Positions 107 through 56,850 of a stretch of DNA of 64,000 bases are shown piece by piece. Every line of letters begins with the position of its first letter. Within the stretch, counting starts at the first letter, position 1. The DNA is from Hydra vulgaris. Lineage: Eukaryota > Cnidaria > Hydrozoa > Anthoathecata > Hydridae. The notes below the pieces were generated by a model that was given only the letters and a program-made list of their open reading frames with translations, had not been told where the DNA came from and ran no database searches. The translations under genes and the position numbers were made by a program. The DNA lies in NCBI RefSeq assembly GCF_038396675.1, contig NC_088926.1, positions 7,436,501 to 7,500,500 of the forward strand, written 5' to 3'.

Positions 107-23066
<22,960 letters not shown>

Positions 23067-23285
23067 TCTTATTTAAGTCTTTAACAGTAATTATAAAACT
23101 TTAGCAGTATCTTAAATCATAAGCCCAGCCGTAAATGGCGTTCGCAAATGTTTTGAAAGTTATCTGCCGAATCCAACGTGGCTATCTTTTTGCTTGGCAA
23201 TAGTGTTTATTAAAAAACGGTAATATACCGGATAACCTGCGGAATTTTAAGTACTTTTGAATAGCTGCGGAATATTTAGATGAAC
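23067..23285 (-). promoter_or_regulatory. Putative SEC13 5' flank
   Basis: The only sequence between the SEC13 start codon and a transposable element. Slightly less AT-rich, with GCCGTAAATGGCGTTCGC and CCGAATCCAACGTGGC. No TATA box or defined motif is asserted; promoter role is inferred from position only. Confidence 0.35.
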
Positions 23286-23339
23286 CGTATTCATCGTGTA
23301 CGATGCACCGTGTGCATCGGTTGACAGGATTGTCAATAA

Positions 23340-23725
23340 ATGAATTTCGGAATAGTGTCAAATATCGGAATAGTGTTGAAAAGGTCTAATGTCGCAAAAA
23401 AAAAGGAATAGTGTCGCAAAAGAATTTAATGAATAGTGTCAAAAACAAAAAAAAGGAATAGTGTCGCAAATAGCAAAAAGATGTATATGTAAAATGTCGC
23501 AAACAGTAAAATCGGAATAGAGTCGAAAACAAAAAAAAGTAATAGTGTCGCAAATAATAAAAGGAATATTGTCGCAAATAGTAAAATTGGAATAGTGTCG
23601 AAAACATAAAAAAAGTAAAGTGTCGCAAATAGTTAAAACGGAATAGTTTCGCAAATAGTAAAATCGAAATAGTGTCGCAAATAGTAAAAACAGAATAGTG
23701 TTGCAAATAGTAAAAACGGAATTGT
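23340..23725. repeat. Minisatellite, units near 25 bp
   Basis: About 15 degenerate units of the type CGGAATAGTGTCGCAAATAG plus A-rich spacer. The long minus-strand frame through it (23386-23835) is a by-product of the repeat. Confidence 0.88.
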
Positions 23726-24100
23726 AGTTGGAGAGAGTTAGCGAAAAATAAAGTCAAACTCACACAATTATAGTATAATGCTGAAATTTTGCAGAGAGAA
23801 AGTGTACAGTCTTTGGGTAGGCGTAAAAAAAACACCAGTTGATTGCGCTACAGTAATATCCCTTTCAGGGCAATTTAAGGGGGAAAAAAGGTCCATTTTG
23901 TCACCTCTAAAATCTTATAAACTTTATACGGTTGGATAGAAAATTTTATCTTGATTAATATTTATATAAGAACTATGACTTATAAGCAATCAATTGAAAA
24001 ATTATTCACGTTTAAAAGTGTGAAAGTTCCATTCGACGTTTTTGCTGCGATAAACGTTTTGTCATGATGTGGTCAAAATATTGTCAACGTTTTTGTTTGA

Positions 24101-24111
24101 TATATATATAT

Positions 24112-24190
<79 letters not shown>
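24101..24190. repeat. (TA)n array
   Basis: Simple TA repeat with a single TAATA slip, left of the hammerhead palindrome. Confidence 0.97.
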
Positions 24191-24191
<1 letters not shown>

Positions 24192-24283
24192 AATTATGTT
24201 AGTGTATTTTACAAATAGAGTGCTCAATGTTCTTAAAGAACAGAGCAATAATTAATTAGTAAAAAACACTTATCTAACTTTTA

Positions 24284-24325
24284 TCTTCGACTCGGAGTTT
24301 CACCATCGCTGGATCATCAGGAAGA
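24284..24325 (-). ncRNA. Hammerhead ribozyme motif (minus strand)
   Basis: Exact mirror of 24330-24371 in the other arm of the palindrome, with the same core, stems and GTC triplet. In a transcript through the whole palindrome the two arms would also pair with each other. Confidence 0.75.
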
Positions 24326-24329
24326 GTAC

Positions 24330-24371
24330 TCTTCCTGATGATCCAGCGATGGTGAAACTCCGAGTCGAAGA
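24330..24371 (+). ncRNA. Hammerhead ribozyme motif (plus strand)
   Basis: Stem I TCTTC/GAAGA; conserved CTGATGA; stem II CCA-GCGA-TGG with a GNRA tetraloop and a T-T pair at its base; GAAA; stem III ACTC-C-GAGT with a one-base loop; cleavage triplet GTC, predicted cut after C 24366. All catalytic-core bases expected of a hammerhead are present. The very short stem III is the kind known from Penelope-associated hammerheads, which may act as dimers. Confidence 0.78.
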
Positions 24372-24396
24372 TAAAAGTTAGATAAGTGTTTTTTAC

Positions 24397-24530
<134 letters not shown>

Positions 24531-24554
24531 TATTTAGATGAATAAAAACAACTG

Positions 24555-24604
24555 ATTAGCGGGACTTAAAGTTTCATGCCCGAAGGCAATCATCAGCCGT
24601 TAAT
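24555..24604 (-). ncRNA. Hammerhead ribozyme motif downstream of Penelope ORF
   Basis: Read on the minus strand. Stem I: ATTAACGG pairs with CCGCTAAT (one A-C mismatch). Core CTGATGA. Stem II TGCC-TTCG-GGCA with an extra-stable UUCG loop. GAAA. Stem III ACTT-T-AAGT. Triplet GTC; predicted cut between 24563 and 24562. It lies about 145 bp beyond the stop codon of the Penelope ORF on the same strand, where a 3' terminal ribozyme of such an element would be expected. Confidence 0.85.
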
Positions 24605-24749
24605 ACAAACAAAAAACGTAAACAAACCGTTACAAAAACGTAAAAATTACTGTAGAATGACATCTGACGTTATAAACAAATCTACGTAAAAAACAAATCT
24701 ACGTAAAAAACAAATCAAAAAACAAAAAACAAAAAGCCGTTATAGTTTA

Positions 24750-25513
24750 CTAGTCCCCTGTGTCAAATAAAGATAATAGGAATTTTTTTGAATGTCGACA
24801 CTGCGATACGATTTCGTTTTTTTTATTCAGTAGGTTTTTTCCATTATGTGATAAAATTACATATTTTTCGTAGAGACAAAGGTGGCATATTTTTGTTGCT
24901 AGATTGTAAGGTTTACAACGTTTGACAATTTTCCATTCTATAATGGGCTTTATGTTTTGGTCTTTTAAGCTCCATATTTCCTTAGATAGTTCTGTGTCAT
25001 TTCTATATTTAACTGATGCAAATGATTTGAGATGGTTTGCGTATCTTAGTTTAAATGGTGTATTACTAATGCCAAAATATACTTTTTTATTACGATCATG
25101 ATGACTGGAACTTACGGTTGCTTGATAGACAATATTGTTAGATAAACATTGATTGTTCAAAGGACAAAATGCTTTATCTACGCAGTTACATTGGTTGGTT
25201 TTTAATTGATTTTTGTTGTGTAAAGTTTTGAAATTATGCGAATTTATGATAGATTTTAGGTTAGGCATGCAACTGTAGCTAATCTTAATAGAATTTCGGT
25301 TGAATATTTTATGTAGCTTGTGGCCGGCTGGAAAATGTAAGTCAATAAGGGCTAGAAAACGGTTTCCTATTTTTGTTTTGACGTTTAAGCTGAACGGAGG
25401 GTTATACCAAATAATATTACGTTTACGTTGCTTTTTTTGTTGATTTTGACTTGAGATTATTTGTGGTTGGTAGGTAAGGTTCGATTTGTATCCCGATTTT
25501 TTTAAAGCCTCTT
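24750..25513 (-). CDS. Penelope-like element, C-terminal linker and GIY-YIG endonuclease (5' truncated)
   Basis: Open for about 250 codons. N-terminal part: [19 protein letters not shown], then [56 protein letters not shown]: the conserved region between reverse transcriptase and nuclease. Then a Cys-rich knot [12 protein letters not shown], followed by the nuclease with [20 protein letters not shown] (GIY-YIG type; the second signature reads KVYFG), Lys/Arg-rich helix and ending LFDTGD. No ATG starts it: the reverse transcriptase is missing and the frame runs upstream into transposon-end sequence at 25514-25544. A stop-free frame suggests a fairly young copy. Followed by a hammerhead motif at 24555-24604. 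Confidence 0.87.
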
Positions 25514-26465
<952 letters not shown>

Positions 26466-26529
26466 AAAACATTTAATCTGAATTTATATTTATTTTAATT
26501 TTATTTTTATTATACCTACTGTTTCCAAA

Positions 26530-26862
26530 AAAAGGTAACTTTGATTCCGTTCTTTTGTTTTCGACACTATTCCTTAAACTCATTTGCAACACTATTCCGT
26601 TTTTTTGTTTTCAACACTATTCCTTAGATTCATTTGCGACACTATTCCGTTTTTTTTGTTTTCGACACTGTTCATTAAACTCCTTTGCGACATTATTCCT
26701 TTTTTTATATTTGACTTATTCATTTGCAACATTCCTTATTCTGTTATTCGACAATTTGCGACACTATTTCTTTTTCACATTTTCGACAATCAAATTTGCG
26801 ACAATCAAATTTTTGCTACACTATTCTGCAACACCTGTGCATCGTGTTCATCGTGTGCTACA
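26530..26862. repeat. Minisatellite arm, inverse of 23340-23725
   Basis: Units like TTTTCGACACTATTCCTTAA and TTTGCGACACTATTCCGTTT in opposite orientation to the left array. Frames through it are repeat artefacts. Confidence 0.85.
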
Positions 26863-33029: not shown

Positions 33030-35041
33030 ATGTCAAAAAAGCCTTCTGTTAAGTCTGCTGTATTTGAACATTTTACTGTTACTCAAGATGGAAAACATTT
33101 TGTCTGTCAATGTATGACAAATGATCCAGATGAAAACAAATGCTGTGGAGTCAAGATCAGTGCATATGCAGGCAAAAATAAAAATGCTCCTACAAGAGCT
33201 TCCAATCTAAAGAGACATTTACAGCGCTTTCATTCTGAACTATTCAAAGTAGTGAAAGAGAAAGACAGCATCCAAAGTAATGAACCAGTGACCAGCACTT
33301 CCAGCCAAGCAAGGGAGCAGAGAACTTTGCAGATATCAGTTGCAAGATATTTTGTTAGCGACAAAGTTACTGTGACAATGACAGTAGATACATTTAAAAA
33401 AAAGATCATAGAGCTTGTGGTAAAGGATGGTTTGCCTATATCATTATTTTCAAAACCAGCTTTTATGGGTCTTAATGGAGAAATGGCCCGCAAGCTTAGC
33501 GTTTCTCTGGAGAGAGAGAGAGTATTAGAAAATTAGTGATTGAAGAAGCTATTAAACAAAAAGAAGAACTTAAAGAATCTCTCAAAGGACGCTTTGTGTT
33601 TCTTAAAATGGACGGCTGTACACGTCACAGAGTGAACTATTTTGCGATCAATGTCCGATTTGTTTGTGAAAATAATGAAATAGTTACCAAGACATTGGCA
33701 GTAAAAGACACCAAAGCTCATCACACCAGCGAATTTCTCCAGCTCTTAGTGGAAAAGATTCTTCAAGAATATGAACTTAGAAAAGAACAAGTTCTTTCAG
33801 TTGTAACTGACAATGCTTCAAACATGATAAGTACCATTAAATTGATGAACAAGACTACTGAAAGTGACAGGCAGCTAGAAGAACATACTGGGTTCAGAGA
33901 AACAGATATATTTGAAATGGAGGAACACAGTATAGAGACAGAGGAGCAAACCGAAGTTGCTTCAGATGAACAGCAACATGACAGTTTAGATGAGCTTGTT
34001 GAAACTATGTCGATACGTTTTCGCATTCATCACATGCGCTGTGCTGTGCATACGCTACAGCTGGCTATACGGGATGGTCTGCAAGAAGGACATGCTGCTG
34101 CACTAATTGAAAAGTTGAGAAAATTGGCTACTGCTGCCAGAACTCCTAAAGTTGACTCAATTTTGAAGAGACGCGCTGGAAAAGGGGCAATTATTGATCA
34201 AGTCACATGATGGGGAAGTACTTACTTAATGATTCAACGCTTGGTTGAACTGAAACCCTTTCTCGTAGACATGGCTAATCCTCAATTAATGCTACATGAA
34301 AGCCAATGGGAACAGGTGAAAGAGCTTGAAGAATTGCTACAACATCCATTTGCAGTGACTAAAAAACTGCAAGAAGAGGACTTAACTCCAGGTATTTTCC
34401 TTAAGGAGTGGAAAAACTTGATGTTTTGCCTGTCTCAAAAAGGAGCGTTATTTGCAAGTGGCATTGCCGCTTCAATGAAACAGAGAGAAAAAGTACTATT
34501 AGAAAATAAGATTTTTTTGGCAGCTGTTTATGTAGACCCAATGCATCGGATACTTCTTGATGATCAACAGCTGACTAAAGGAAAAGAAGCTCTGTTTGAA
34601 ATAGCTGTAAGAATGAACAAGTTACAGAACTGTCAGGAACAAGAAGAATTGGGTCATACTGCCACATCTTCAACATCATCAACTGATGAAGAATTTGATT
34701 TTGAGAAATATTTGGACCATAAAGACCGTACAAAGCGTTCCCGCATGGAAAAAGAGTCATCCCTATCAGAGAACACTGCCAGTAAATTTCAGCACAGTTT
34801 TTCATGTGCATTAAAAGTAGTGGAACAATTTGACCGTTCATCAAAAGTAACAGTACTGCAAGCAATTGATATGTATCCTGAAATGGTCAGAGAAGTTGCC
34901 CGAGTAGTTACTGCCTTGCCACCAACTCAAGTTAGTGTGGAGAGGTTGTTCTCTGCGCTAAAAATAATAAGATCAGATTTGAGGACATCCATGAAGGAAG
35001 ATCTTATGGAGGCAATACTATTTCTGAGGACAAATTCATAG
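33030..35041 (+). pseudogene. hAT transposase, two inactivating lesions
   Basis: BED zinc finger near residues 8-70 (FVCQC...CCGVKI...NLKRHLQRFH), RNase H-like core (FLKMDGCTRHRVNYFAI; VVTDNASNMIST with the second Asp; MRCAVHTLQLAI with the Cys/His motif; WGSTYLMIQRL), hAT dimerisation tail (PPTQVSVERLFSALKIIRSD). First in-frame ATG at 33030, giving MSKKPS; the frame is open upstream only with non-ATG codons. Lesion 1: a (GA)n run at 33510-33523 shifts frame just before RKLVIEEA. Lesion 2: TGA at 34208-34210 between DQVT and WGSTY where Arg (CGA) is expected. Otherwise intact to the stop after LFLRTNS, about 670 residues. Confidence 0.93.
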
Positions 35042-42170: not shown

Positions 42171-43652
42171 TTATTTTCTTATTCTTGCATCAATTCTTCC
42201 ATTCCTAATTTTTTCAAGATAACGTGATATAAACGGAATCATCAACACAAGCTTAAGAATTATAACCACAAGTGGAAATATTCCCATTACAAATATTGGG
42301 TACGGATAAACTCCATTTGGGTTTGTTTTCCATAAACGCCAACCATATATGTAGCTTGGATTCCAAAATTTGTAACCTTGACATATAATATGACCAAAAG
42401 TTAGAACTAAGCATAAGAAACCAAGATGACTTTGAATAAACCTCCATTCTCTCCAGCTCATTTGTGCGGACACGGAAGATATTGACGTTATTCCCATTAT
42501 CGACATGATAGCAAAAGCAAACACTCCAAAAAGCATAGAAAGTTGTGCTACCCAGTTCATACCTTGGTATATTTTAATGACTGAGTGTTTAAAAACTGGA
42601 ATATATATGGTGTTTAAAAGATACTTTAAATCTCCAGAACCAATTAGTAAGCAAGAAATACAACCATGAACTCCACCGAGTAGCAACGATATTAATCCAA
42701 GTTGTTTACGACATTTCATCCAATTATTTAACCATGGTGGAAAAGAGAAGTACTTTGTGCGTTTATATAATTGGAAAAATCCTGCTATTGCATTAGCTAA
42801 ATATATTACTGCTATCAAGGTCGATGTTAGCCATGAAATAACTATGTTTGCTTGATAGAGAGGTATGCCGTCCATTTCTTCTTTGTTATGGTCTTTTTCA
42901 AACCAAAAAAGACGTAGATAGACATAAAGCAAAATAGGTATTAGCGTTAGGAATGTTATAAATAATGCATAATACCAATTAGGAAATAATCGCAATGATA
43001 ACCGTTCAATTAAAATGGCTGAATTTAACGATCCTTTATCAATAGGATTCATACCGATTTCTCTCAAGATGCTACACAGCTTATCTTTAATCAAATTGTT
43101 ATTACCACAAATATATGTATCTCGAATGCACCCATAAAAATCATTTTCCATTGAGTACACTGATATTGTGTTTAACGCTTTAACAACGTAGGACTTAGGA
43201 AGTAGTTTTTGAAGTTTTAATGCATTGCACTCATCTGAACTGCTTTCCAGGTTGCTCACATCGACTACTATTTTTTTCTCTAACATTTTTGAGTGCTCTA
43301 CAGAAAACTTTGCGTGCGCGTATACCGGCAAACATAAAAATATAATTTCAGTATTGATAATTGCTTGTTTAACGGATACAACAACTGAAGAACCAGCTAT
43401 TGGTGATCTGCTTCCAATGCAGTAGTCTAGAGCAGCGTTCTGAAAAAGAGTTGCTAAAGCTTTGCCAAAGTTTCCGTTGCCAATAATTGCTACTCTAGGC
43501 TTACCATTGCTTTCTGTTTTTATTTCTTCATCATTGTTTTCGTTTTCATCGTAACTTTCGCTGTCGTTGGTTTTGCGTAACTCTAAACAATTGTGAAATT
43601 GAGTTTCTTCTTGCTCAACGTCAACGTCGACATCAATATTTGCGTAAGACAT
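42171..43652 (-). CDS. STEAP-family metalloreductase, single exon
   Basis: 493 residues; STEAP2-4 reduce ferric iron and cupric copper at the cell surface or endosomes using cytosolic NADPH, FAD and one haem. Acidic N-terminal extension (1-50), then a Rossmann oxidoreductase domain with IIGNGNFGKALATLF (about 56-70), SRSP (81-84) binding NADP, DVSN and VKALNTIS typical of the F420:NADPH-like fold. From 226 six membrane segments; haem ligands His329 (LLGGVHGCIS) and His421 (TFGHIIC), spaced as in human STEAPs. Start ATG at 43652 follows an in-frame acidic leader. AATAAA at about 42027 and another overlapping the stop could serve polyadenylation. Intron-free whereas vertebrate STEAP genes have several exons: a lineage trait or retrocopy. 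Which STEAP paralogue cannot be told. Confidence 0.93.
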   Translation of the reverse strand: MSYANIDVDVDVEQEETQFHNCLELRKTNDSESYDENENNDEEIKTESNGKPRVAIIGNGNFGKALATLFQNAALDYCIGSRSPIAGSSVVVSVKQAIINTEIIFLCLPVYAHAKFSVEHSKMLEKKIVVDVSNLESSSDECNALKLQKLLPKSYVVKALNTISVYSMENDFYGCIRDTYICGNNNLIKDKLCSILREIGMNPIDKGSLNSAILIERLSLRLFPNWYYALFITFLTLIPILLYVYLRLFWFEKDHNKEEMDGIPLYQANIVISWLTSTLIAVIYLANAIAGFFQLYKRTKYFSFPPWLNNWMKCRKQLGLISLLLGGVHGCISCLLIGSGDLKYLLNTIYIPVFKHSVIKIYQGMNWVAQLSMLFGVFAFAIMSIMGITSISSVSAQMSWREWRFIQSHLGFLCLVLTFGHIICQGYKFWNPSYIYGWRLWKTNPNGVYPYPIFVMGIFPLVVIILKLVLMIPFISRYLEKIRNGRIDARIRK

Positions 43653-44510
43653 TTGTGATATTATTAAATACTATTTTTATATAATATATGTTGTATTTTA
43701 TTTGTTGTATTTCTTTTCTAAAACGTTGTTATTTCTTATTTACATCTGATGCCTTTTTATTAAAATGTTACCCTAATCCCAAAATTTTATCCCCTTCTAG
43801 TCGAATACATTTAGCATCTTTTATTTAATTGTCAAAGTAATTGAATTATAACCTCCGCACCTTTTGAAAATTAATTATAAAATGATTCTCTGGTTTTAAC
43901 TAAGTATTTTAACAAAATGACTCACTCAAAAATGTTTTTTCGGGTTAAAAATTTACTTTAAGTTCACCGACGTGCTTTAGTAAGCGTTCAACTGCTATTT
44001 TAAAATAAAACTGTAACCATTAATACAACCACATAGTTTGTATAAATTAATAAACTTAACAAGACGCTTTCATAAAAAAAATAACGATAAAAGGAATGAT
44101 CTTTTATTGCACAAAGTTTTCTAGTGAAAATGTCACAACACAGCTTTATTAACAAAATCTTCAAAACGTTTATGAACATAATACTTGTAATTTATACATA
44201 GTACTTGTAATTTGTTAAGTCTGAAGTGAGATAATATTCATCAAGATCATCTTCATATTTATTAGAATTATCTTAAACAGAAAATCTTATGTACCATCGT
44301 TGCAGTCTTTATTTACACTGTTGTCATAATGAATATATTCATAATCATTAGGATTTGAATACTTTTCCGATCTCAGCCATCAGAAAATTTTTTTTTTACA
44401 TCTTTACTTGTTATTCACATTTATTTTTCTATCAAATTTTTACATTTTTATTGCATAGACAACATATTTGCTTAATGATATTACCGATTGTATCAAAAAT
44501 GCATAATGTA
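43653..44510. other. 5' flank of STEAP gene, no other gene
   Basis: AT-rich. TATAAAAAT occurs on the minus strand at about 43674-43682, only about 25 bp before the ATG, so it would imply a very short leader or is incidental. Confidence 0.4.
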
Positions 44511-55371: not shown

Positions 55372-56850
55372 TTATATAAACTCATTCAGTACATTACCGT
55401 TCATAAGTATTGGAAGATCTAAATTATTGCGATAATGATTGGCTGAAAAAAATTGGATTTTATCTGAATTAAAGTTCACCAGCCGCTGTGAGCCCCATGC
55501 TGTAGCAGATATGAGATCCTTTTCAAGCTCAAATGCTTCCTCCAAGAAATTAAAGAGTTTTGACTTCTTATTAAGACAATAATGAATGGTAGTATCATCA
55601 GCGAACAATGCCACCTTAGATATGAGAATATCCGGAAGATCGTAAATGTAAATTAAACAGAGTATAGAGCCAAAGATTGAACCTTCAGAAACCCCTGAAA
55701 TTACAGGATATGAAGAAGAGTGCTGTCCATTGAGGACAACTTTTATAATACAATTGGTAAGGGCAGATTCAATAGTCTTAAAGATGTTACCTAATACACC
55801 GTAAGAAAAAAGCTTATGGAGAAGACCGGCATGCCAAACTTTATCAAAAGCTATTGAAACGTCAAGAGCGATAGCCTTAACCTCTCCACCTTTATCTAAT
55901 GCAAGATAAAACCTAATATAGCAAATCACTTGTAGAGCGAGAAGATCAAAATCCATATTAATGATCAGAAAGTAAGTTATTAGATTTAAGATGAGAGATT
56001 AGGTGTTTGTTAATTAAAGATTTAAGAATCGTGCCTATGATAGGAAAAAGACTAATAGGACGGCAGTTAGACGAGTCAGATTGCTCTCCAGAATTTTTGA
56101 AAGTAGAGGTAACAGATAGCGCTTTCCAGTAGGCTGGAAAACAAGACTCTGATAAGCACTTGTTAAATAGTTTTGAAAGTATAGACCATAAGTTTAGAAA
56201 GTAAAGCTCGGGAGAACACTTCTGCAAGACTATAGCAGGTATGCTGTCCAAGCCACAAGCTATAGAAGAGTCTTAACAGGAAATCAATTTAGATACAGAA
56301 GCTGGAGTGATACGAATGTCAAGCAATGGATCAACCTGTTTGACAGCTATATCAGGTAGAACACAACTAGTGGAATCAAGAGATGATATTGATTAAAAGT
56401 TCTTAGCAAACAATTCAACTTTGTCTTTAAGTGAGGTGACAAAATCTGAACCATAAAAAAGAGTTAGAAAAACAGATTTGCCCTTATTATTGATACTGTT
56501 AAAAATTCTTCATAAGTCACGAGAGCCTAATTTTTGAGATGAAATACGAGCTTTAGTGACCTGAGAATAGCGGGCTTTGGCGTTAGACAAAACCTTTTAA
56601 TAATAGTCTTGAAATAAAGGAAAGCGATACAAAACAAAGAGAAAGGCGATGGAGTGAAGTGATGCTAAACAAGAGCATATAAAAAGATTTACGGTGAATT
56701 GATAGCCAAGCTCAAACTAGTCTCACAAAGAGCAAGTAAGTCTGGTGAACTTTGCAAGAGATAAGACTCAACAGAAAAAAAGTTACTTTAAAGACCATGA
56801 ATGTTAGTGAACAATAGGTTTAGAGAGTTTGTGAATTAGTAAGGTTTTTT
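55372..56850 (-). pseudogene. CR1-like LINE, reverse transcriptase with partial endonuclease
   Basis: Minus strand. Near 56800-56720: LNLLFTNIHGL, SVESYLLQSSPDLLALCETS, the start of the APE endonuclease, then a deletion. From 56251: MDSIPAIVLQKCSPELYFLN, LSKLFNKCLSESCFPAYWKA, FKNSGEQSDSSNCRPISLFP, LINKHLISHLKSNNLLSDH. From 55956 after stops: LDKGGEVKAIALDVSIAFDK, VLNGQHSSSYPVISGVSEGS, ALFADDTTIHYC (catalytic FADD), GSQRLVNFNSDKIQFFSAN. Stops and deletions make it inactive. Same family as 8990-10190. Confidence 0.88.

Follow-up and report, generated by a model that had tools for sequence, protein, structure and literature searches.

A genuine hammerhead ribozyme motif is confirmed at 24604-24554 on the minus strand of the window, by which we mean the whole 64,000-nucleotide stretch of Hydra vulgaris DNA analysed (G+C 28.6%). 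Very probably it is a type I hammerhead of the minimal form, carried by a Penelope-like retroelement (PLE) in the customary position within the pLTR (pseudo-LTR), 3′ of a GIY-YIG endonuclease and before a 3′ tail, and it would act as a double hammerhead and cut tandem RNA. The basis for this reading is found in the sequence, in pairing preserved by covariation, in the position relative to the ORF and in kinship with other PLEs. Such minimal type I motifs in Penelope-like elements have reportedly been treated by Cervera and De la Pena in 2014 and by Lunse et al. in 2017. The interpretation offered in the initial annotation is, as a whole, supported as largely right. Minimal PLE hammerheads form an established class, presented in PMC6155905, PMC7761336 and PMC7229834, and the motif is one of its members.

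Read from 24604 to 24555, the minus strand is AUUAACGG-CUGAUGA-U-UGCC-UUCG-GGCA-U-GAAA-CUU-U-AAG-UC^CCGCUAAU, where ^ marks the predicted cut. The full hammerhead core (CUGAUGA, GAAA and GUC) is present with three stems, and CUGANGA, GAAA and UH follow one another in type I order. Stem I (24604-24597/24562-24555) has eight positions, seven paired and one A.C, and is followed by the CTGATGA core box (24596-24590), a U.U mismatch at the base of stem II (24589/24576), stem II itself (24588-24585/24580-24577; 4 bp, UGCC-UUCG-GGCA, loop TTCG) and the GAAA core box (24575-24572). Stem III is reduced to the 7-mer CTTTAAG (24571-24565), with three potential pairs and a one-base loop (CUU-U-AAG), and cleavage is predicted after C24563, between 24563 and 24562 (GUC^CCG). 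The initial annotation had described the complete minus-strand core, the 8-bp stem I with one mismatch, the short stem III with its one-base loop and the same predicted cut in the way that we read them from the sequence; its UUCG-capped stem II stands as well (4 bp with a UUCG loop), but the U.U at the base of that stem went unmentioned.

The feature at 24554..24604 was recovered by sequence, pattern, descriptor, covariance model and covariation. The pattern CTGATGAN{6,30}GAAACNNNNNGTC matched three times in the window against a mean of 0.00 in 100 shuffles, and a full hammerhead descriptor with all three stems found four sites against one in 150 simulated 64-kb sequences, both searches having been composed after the motif had been seen. 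A much looser pattern gave nine matches, a number reached in 1 of 100 shuffles (shuffle mean 1.86). The descriptor's four sites comprise the 24604-24554 motif, one at 12704 and one in each arm of a palindrome that spans 24253-24402; the three further hammerheads are absent from the initial annotation, which concerned 24555..24604. A covariance model, R1, was trained on just the palindrome copies and the one at 12704, and the window was scanned with filters off. The 24604-24554 motif, excluded from model building, scored 20.1 bits (E 0.0014), and the next-best non-training site scored 11.5 bits (E 0.89), these E-values being rough. R1 lists 24 window sites, and the motif outranks the other 20 non-training ones.

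The Rfam search that the initial annotation had proposed, with silence to count as refutation, returned no hammerhead match for the motif, neither at gathering score nor at E<=10 (401 and 71 nt); the gathering threshold of RF00163 Hammerhead_1 (34 bits) was not reached. The same silence holds for the 12704 motif and for a complete hammerhead at another PLE locus, L001, described below, and because that complete hammerhead is missed too, Rfam is a poor test of the short-stem-III form and weak as a refutation. The palindrome arms match RF00163 at 25.6 bits, under the gathering 34. Among the 50 Rfam matches to the palindrome at E<=10, RF00163 stands below microRNA families, which top the list by scoring the long hairpin of the palindrome. 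Single-strand folding of the 24604-24554 motif gives a minimum-free-energy structure other than the hammerhead, with a z-score of -0.09 and an energy equalled or bettered by 79 of 200 shuffles.

Upstream on the same strand lies the 3′ end of a 5′-truncated Penelope-like ORF (24750..25526, minus; about 256 aa), comprising a linker and a GIY-YIG endonuclease with catalytic residues. The stretch from its stop codon to stem I occupies 24605..24749, with 153 nt from the stop to CTGATGA. The initial annotation was correct in placing the hammerhead on the strand of a Penelope ORF and downstream of it, but what it called a stop-free Penelope ORF is the endonuclease end only. The RT domain was not found in this ORF, which ends at (TA)n and whose match begins at residue 91 of P0001; a search of the window for an RT-side piece gave no matches with 7 of 120 listed relatives, which include no more of the RT than its C-terminal part. 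The window copy is an endonuclease-only, 5′-truncated remnant. Among the 120 relatives listed of 1329, the top-ranked named ones come from Hydra vulgaris: two align over 100% and 97% of the query at 69% and 68% identity, and another reaches 92% over 57%, which makes a Hydra the most likely host. The endonuclease alignment comprised the window and 21 of those 120. Pfam gave no GIY-YIG match on the ORF, and Foldseek with its AlphaFold model (mean pLDDT 71.4) had none of 176 matches at E<=0.001; a second look at the same model with VIA-align ranked the I-TevI catalytic domain first. A search of solved-structure sequences gave three matches at E 0.027 to 0.17 (two LAMP1, one gp120), which we regard as noise. 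No PLE relatives were found in viral contigs with the protein or the alignment.

Protein alignment alone retrieved two PLE loci (L001 and L002) from a bacterial genome collection, and both are probably animal DNA, presumably of the host, left in bacterial assemblies. In each of the two, a hammerhead core lies downstream on the same strand, 126 nt (L001) and 124 nt (L002) past the stop compared with 153 in the window, so that the core position is common to all three PLE loci, the window included. Elsewhere the bare core pattern has three other matches in L001 and none in L002, and a core would arise by chance within 300 nt of a single strand with a probability of about 0.02 in L001 and 0.017 in L002. 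The L001 motif is complete (CUGACGA-U-CCA-GCAA-UGG-U-GAAA-CGG-G-CCG-UU, with CCACAC/GUGUGG as stem I) and scores 42.2 bits (E 8.9e-11) with the window-built model R1. L002 was not reported by R1 at E<=0.05; its contig ends inside the motif, leaving stems I and III incomplete. An ORF starting at 1436 in L001, past the hammerhead, matches the N-terminal part of the L002 PLE ORF (49% over 273 residues); with this PLE ORF start behind it, the L001 hammerhead is flanked by a PLE ORF on either side, an arrangement like that of a tandem pLTR. L001 alone shows a pLTR between two units. Association of the hammerhead with a PLE, at the pLTR, was found.

Four distinct complete motifs are available for comparison, and the shrunken stem III, with three potential pairs and a one-base loop, occurs in all four. 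Of 48 cells, 97.9% are paired and both sides are changed in 10 of 12 pairs, with a covariation score of 1.03 against 0.30 in shuffles (reached by none of 500), figures that lean upward because the alignment was fitted to the model structure and two of the four motifs are close kin. When the registers are slid, only 31-53% of cells pair in the same four motifs. The three helices are kept by compensatory change, as judged on four distinct sequences. The stem III 7-mers are CUUUAAG (24604-24554), CUCCGAG, CUUCAAG and CGGGCCG (L001), each self-complementary round its middle base, and UA, CG and GC all occur as the third pair across the motifs. Between the palindrome and 12704 copies, 5 of 42 positions differ, and two of these five form a compensatory C-G to U-A change at that third pair. 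This covarying pair closes a one-base loop, which is impossible within one molecule, and for this reason dimers are favoured. Dimer action has comparative support in this covariation, since the pair can form in a dimer only.

Two molecules that share their 7-mers form a 6-bp stem with one mismatch. The computed energy for 24604-24554 is -18.8 kcal/mol as a dimer versus 2 x -5.5 for monomers, and the dimer advantage over two monomers is 7.8 (24604-24554), 12.0 (palindrome), 7.6 (12704) and 15.6 kcal/mol (L001). The hammerhead fold is the energy minimum in none of the four motifs, under an energy model that omits tertiary contacts; for 24604-24554 it reaches -5.5 against a minimum of -9.8 as a monomer and -18.8 against -25.0 as a dimer. 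The earlier suggestion that the one-base stem III loop may require a dimer is supported by the covarying third pair and by these modelled energies, and the 24604-24554 hammerhead is probably dimer-dependent.

From these observations we infer cleavage, dimer action and a role in RNA processing. A tandem PLE transcript would be cut by the hammerheads between its units, at GUC^CCG in the present case. Because CUUUAAG is self-complementary round its middle base, two copies can share one 6-bp stem III as a double hammerhead; the copies that pair would be two tandem pLTRs or two transcripts, and a monomer would cut poorly. The window copy is a remnant that has lost its RT part and retains a single pLTR, and a second hammerhead of the 24604-24554 kind was not found in the window. 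One rival, which agrees with our reading on identity, is that the motif is a decayed fossil of a PLE hammerhead, with the right ancestry and its activity gone. The copy is truncated, stems I and II are weakened by an A.C and a U.U respectively, another fold is favoured and the descriptor finds no second minus-strand hammerhead upstream of the ORF in the window; however, the core bases are all intact and seven of the eight stem I positions are paired, and we consider loss of activity rather unlikely. We judge it very unlikely that a monomeric hammerhead acts in cis here by closing a stem III of 2 bp over a 3-nt loop. Such a stem, C-G and U-A with the loop UUA, is sterically possible, and an axolotl hammerhead whose helix II also has a basal U.U is reported to reach 22% cleavage in an hour as a monomeric repeat (PMC7229834), but covariation is seen at the third stem III pair, for which a monomer would have no use, the dimer is favoured by 7.6 to 15.6 kcal/mol in four sequences, and the axolotl motifs are described as cutting much better in dimeric constructs (PMC7229834). 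That a loose motif happens to match next to an ORF with which it has nothing to do, an idea for which the silence of Rfam and a fold no better than shuffles could be cited, is scarcely credible against the strict pattern, the descriptor, the R1 scores in the window and L001, the covariation and the same placement in all three PLE loci, of which the other two speak strongly against it.

Past the predicted cleavage site, the 24604-24554 hammerhead has a 3′ tail of 33 nt (24530..24562, minus), followed by AATT and (TA)n. By our own count the tails are 33 nt here, 31 on each palindrome arm and 25 at 12704, with AATT next in all; beyond AATT, three of the four run into (TA)n, and the left side of the palindrome continues with other AT-rich DNA. 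PLE insertions may have a tail beyond the pLTR, given as 31 bp in one Adineta element (PMC3846280), and for the Anolis enzyme reverse transcription is reported to begin inside the RNA, with a preference for an ATT motif in AT-rich DNA (PMC11167929). By analogy, the hammerhead ends in the window resemble PLE tails.

About 150 bp from the 24604-24554 hammerhead lies a perfect palindrome of 150 bp (24253..24402) with two identical 75-nt arms and its centre at 24327/24328. It consists of two divergent hammerhead units with their tails outward, one in the right arm (24330..24371, plus) and one of identical sequence in the left arm (24284..24325, minus), both found by pattern and descriptor besides the RF00163 match. 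A hammerhead of the same family with a GUU triplet, found by the descriptor, occupies 12699..12740 (plus), and a 12-nt inverted repeat round 6 nt (ATCATCAGGAAG / CTTCCTGATGAT) at 12682..12711 has its centre where the full palindrome has it, both centres being 7 nt before CTGATGA; the right arm of this repeat spans the 5′ strand of stem I and the core of the 12704 hammerhead. The palindrome transcript is one long hairpin (-128 kcal/mol), and because it folds in this way the palindrome ribozymes are probably silent in read-through RNA. By eye, no comparable hairpin occurs in the printed sequence of 24604-24554 or L001, so that a hairpin of this type would be a feature of one family. Viral contigs gave no match to the palindrome centre, and the idea of an ORF start inside the ribozyme core, inconsistent between copies by eye, was dropped. 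A palindromic hammerhead pair is not named in the titles and abstract openings of the literature searched, and we claim no priority.

One quite unlikely reading of the palindrome is that the stem I strand and core of the ribozyme double as a primer hairpin for self-primed DNA synthesis, with 12704 as the unextended hairpin and 24253-24402 as the extended product. A stretch of the ribozyme, CTTCCTGATGAT, would serve as the primer, and because the hairpin would also hide the ribozyme core, cutting and self-priming would exclude each other. This reading draws on two copies, too few to show extension. Alternatives are two-sided target priming, for which it speaks that the Anolis enzyme is reported to extend both strands (PMC11167929), and a 12704 copy that is itself a truncated palindrome.

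Several other elements were observed in the window. A minisatellite of about 25 nt (GGAATAGTGTCGCAAA...) forms two inverted arrays (23331-23714 and about 26544-26760) that bracket the PLE and palindrome region and are perhaps the ends of one larger fold-back element. At 25717-26345 there is a 629-bp inverted repeat (arms of 314 nt, 93%) with ends CAG(T/C)GGCGGATCCAGCATTTTTTG and (TA)n flanks, and a CAG(T/C)GGCGGATCCAGCATTTTTTG end is also fused to the PLE ORF at about 25541-25510. An 80-nt unit (ATCTCCTAATAAGGATACAG...CTGAACTCTAG) occurs twice, at 12851-12930 and 13012-13091, each time between (TA)n runs. Pieces of a hAT-type transposase lie at 33500-35041 (plus; DUF659 1.6e-6, below cut-off; Dimer_Tnp_hAT 3e-5, above cut-off), and an RT fragment at 55372-55998 (minus; RVT_1 7e-15) is perhaps a LINE-like remnant. 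A 499-aa ORF at 42171-43670 (minus; F420_oxidored 1.4e-7 and Ferric_reduct 2.6e-6, just below cut-off) is one that we take to resemble a STEAP-type metalloreductase gene.

Both minimal hammerheads and palindromic inverted pLTRs are already known in PLEs. With the PLE minimal type I hammerheads described in PMC6155905 and PMC7761336, the 24604-24554 motif shares the PLE association, type I order, a shrunken stem III and the proposed dimer action; those reviews describe the class as being without helix III, whereas the present motif has a stem III, a self-complementary 7-mer round a one-base loop, and also a U.U mismatch where stem II begins. The axolotl retrozyme HHR_Amex2 (PMC7229834) is alike in its U.U at the base of helix II and in performing better as a dimer, but as described it belongs to a retrozyme and not a PLE, its stem III has two pairs and a tetraloop, and it makes loop-loop contacts. 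A non-LTR retrozyme was also considered here and rejected, as no tandem array of ~150-450 bp with canonical type I hammerheads occurs at 23000-26600 or, by eye, at 12301-13200.

The Anolis Poseidon element PAc (PMC11167929) likewise has its hammerhead at the pLTR with a tail beyond it and an AT-rich target with an ATT motif. However, its hammerhead is reported to overlap the ORF start, with the cut 26 nt inside the ORF, whereas in L001 about 150 nt separate the cut from the next ORF, and no further ORF follows in the window copy. Cleavage by the PAc hammerhead is reported to have required protein, with none seen without it; ribozyme mutants are reported to have left in vitro insertion by the Anolis PLE unaffected, and that study reports no RNA reads beginning or ending at the cut site (PMC11167929). 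These Anolis results speak against a needed role in RNA processing. Penelope elements of Adineta vaga (PMC3846280) resemble the window copies in their head-to-head inverted pLTR units joined at a palindrome and in their optional tail. The authors of that study read the inverted pLTRs as self-priming on an antisense template, leaving other ways possible, and the word hammerhead occurs zero times in the main text of that study, whereas each arm of the window palindrome is a hammerhead unit. A review (PMC7761336) calls the in vivo activity and role of PLE hammerheads a mystery. The palindrome ties the ribozyme to inverted pLTR structures that have been ascribed to self-priming in Adineta (PMC3846280), and one window offers three distinct hammerheads with clear tails.
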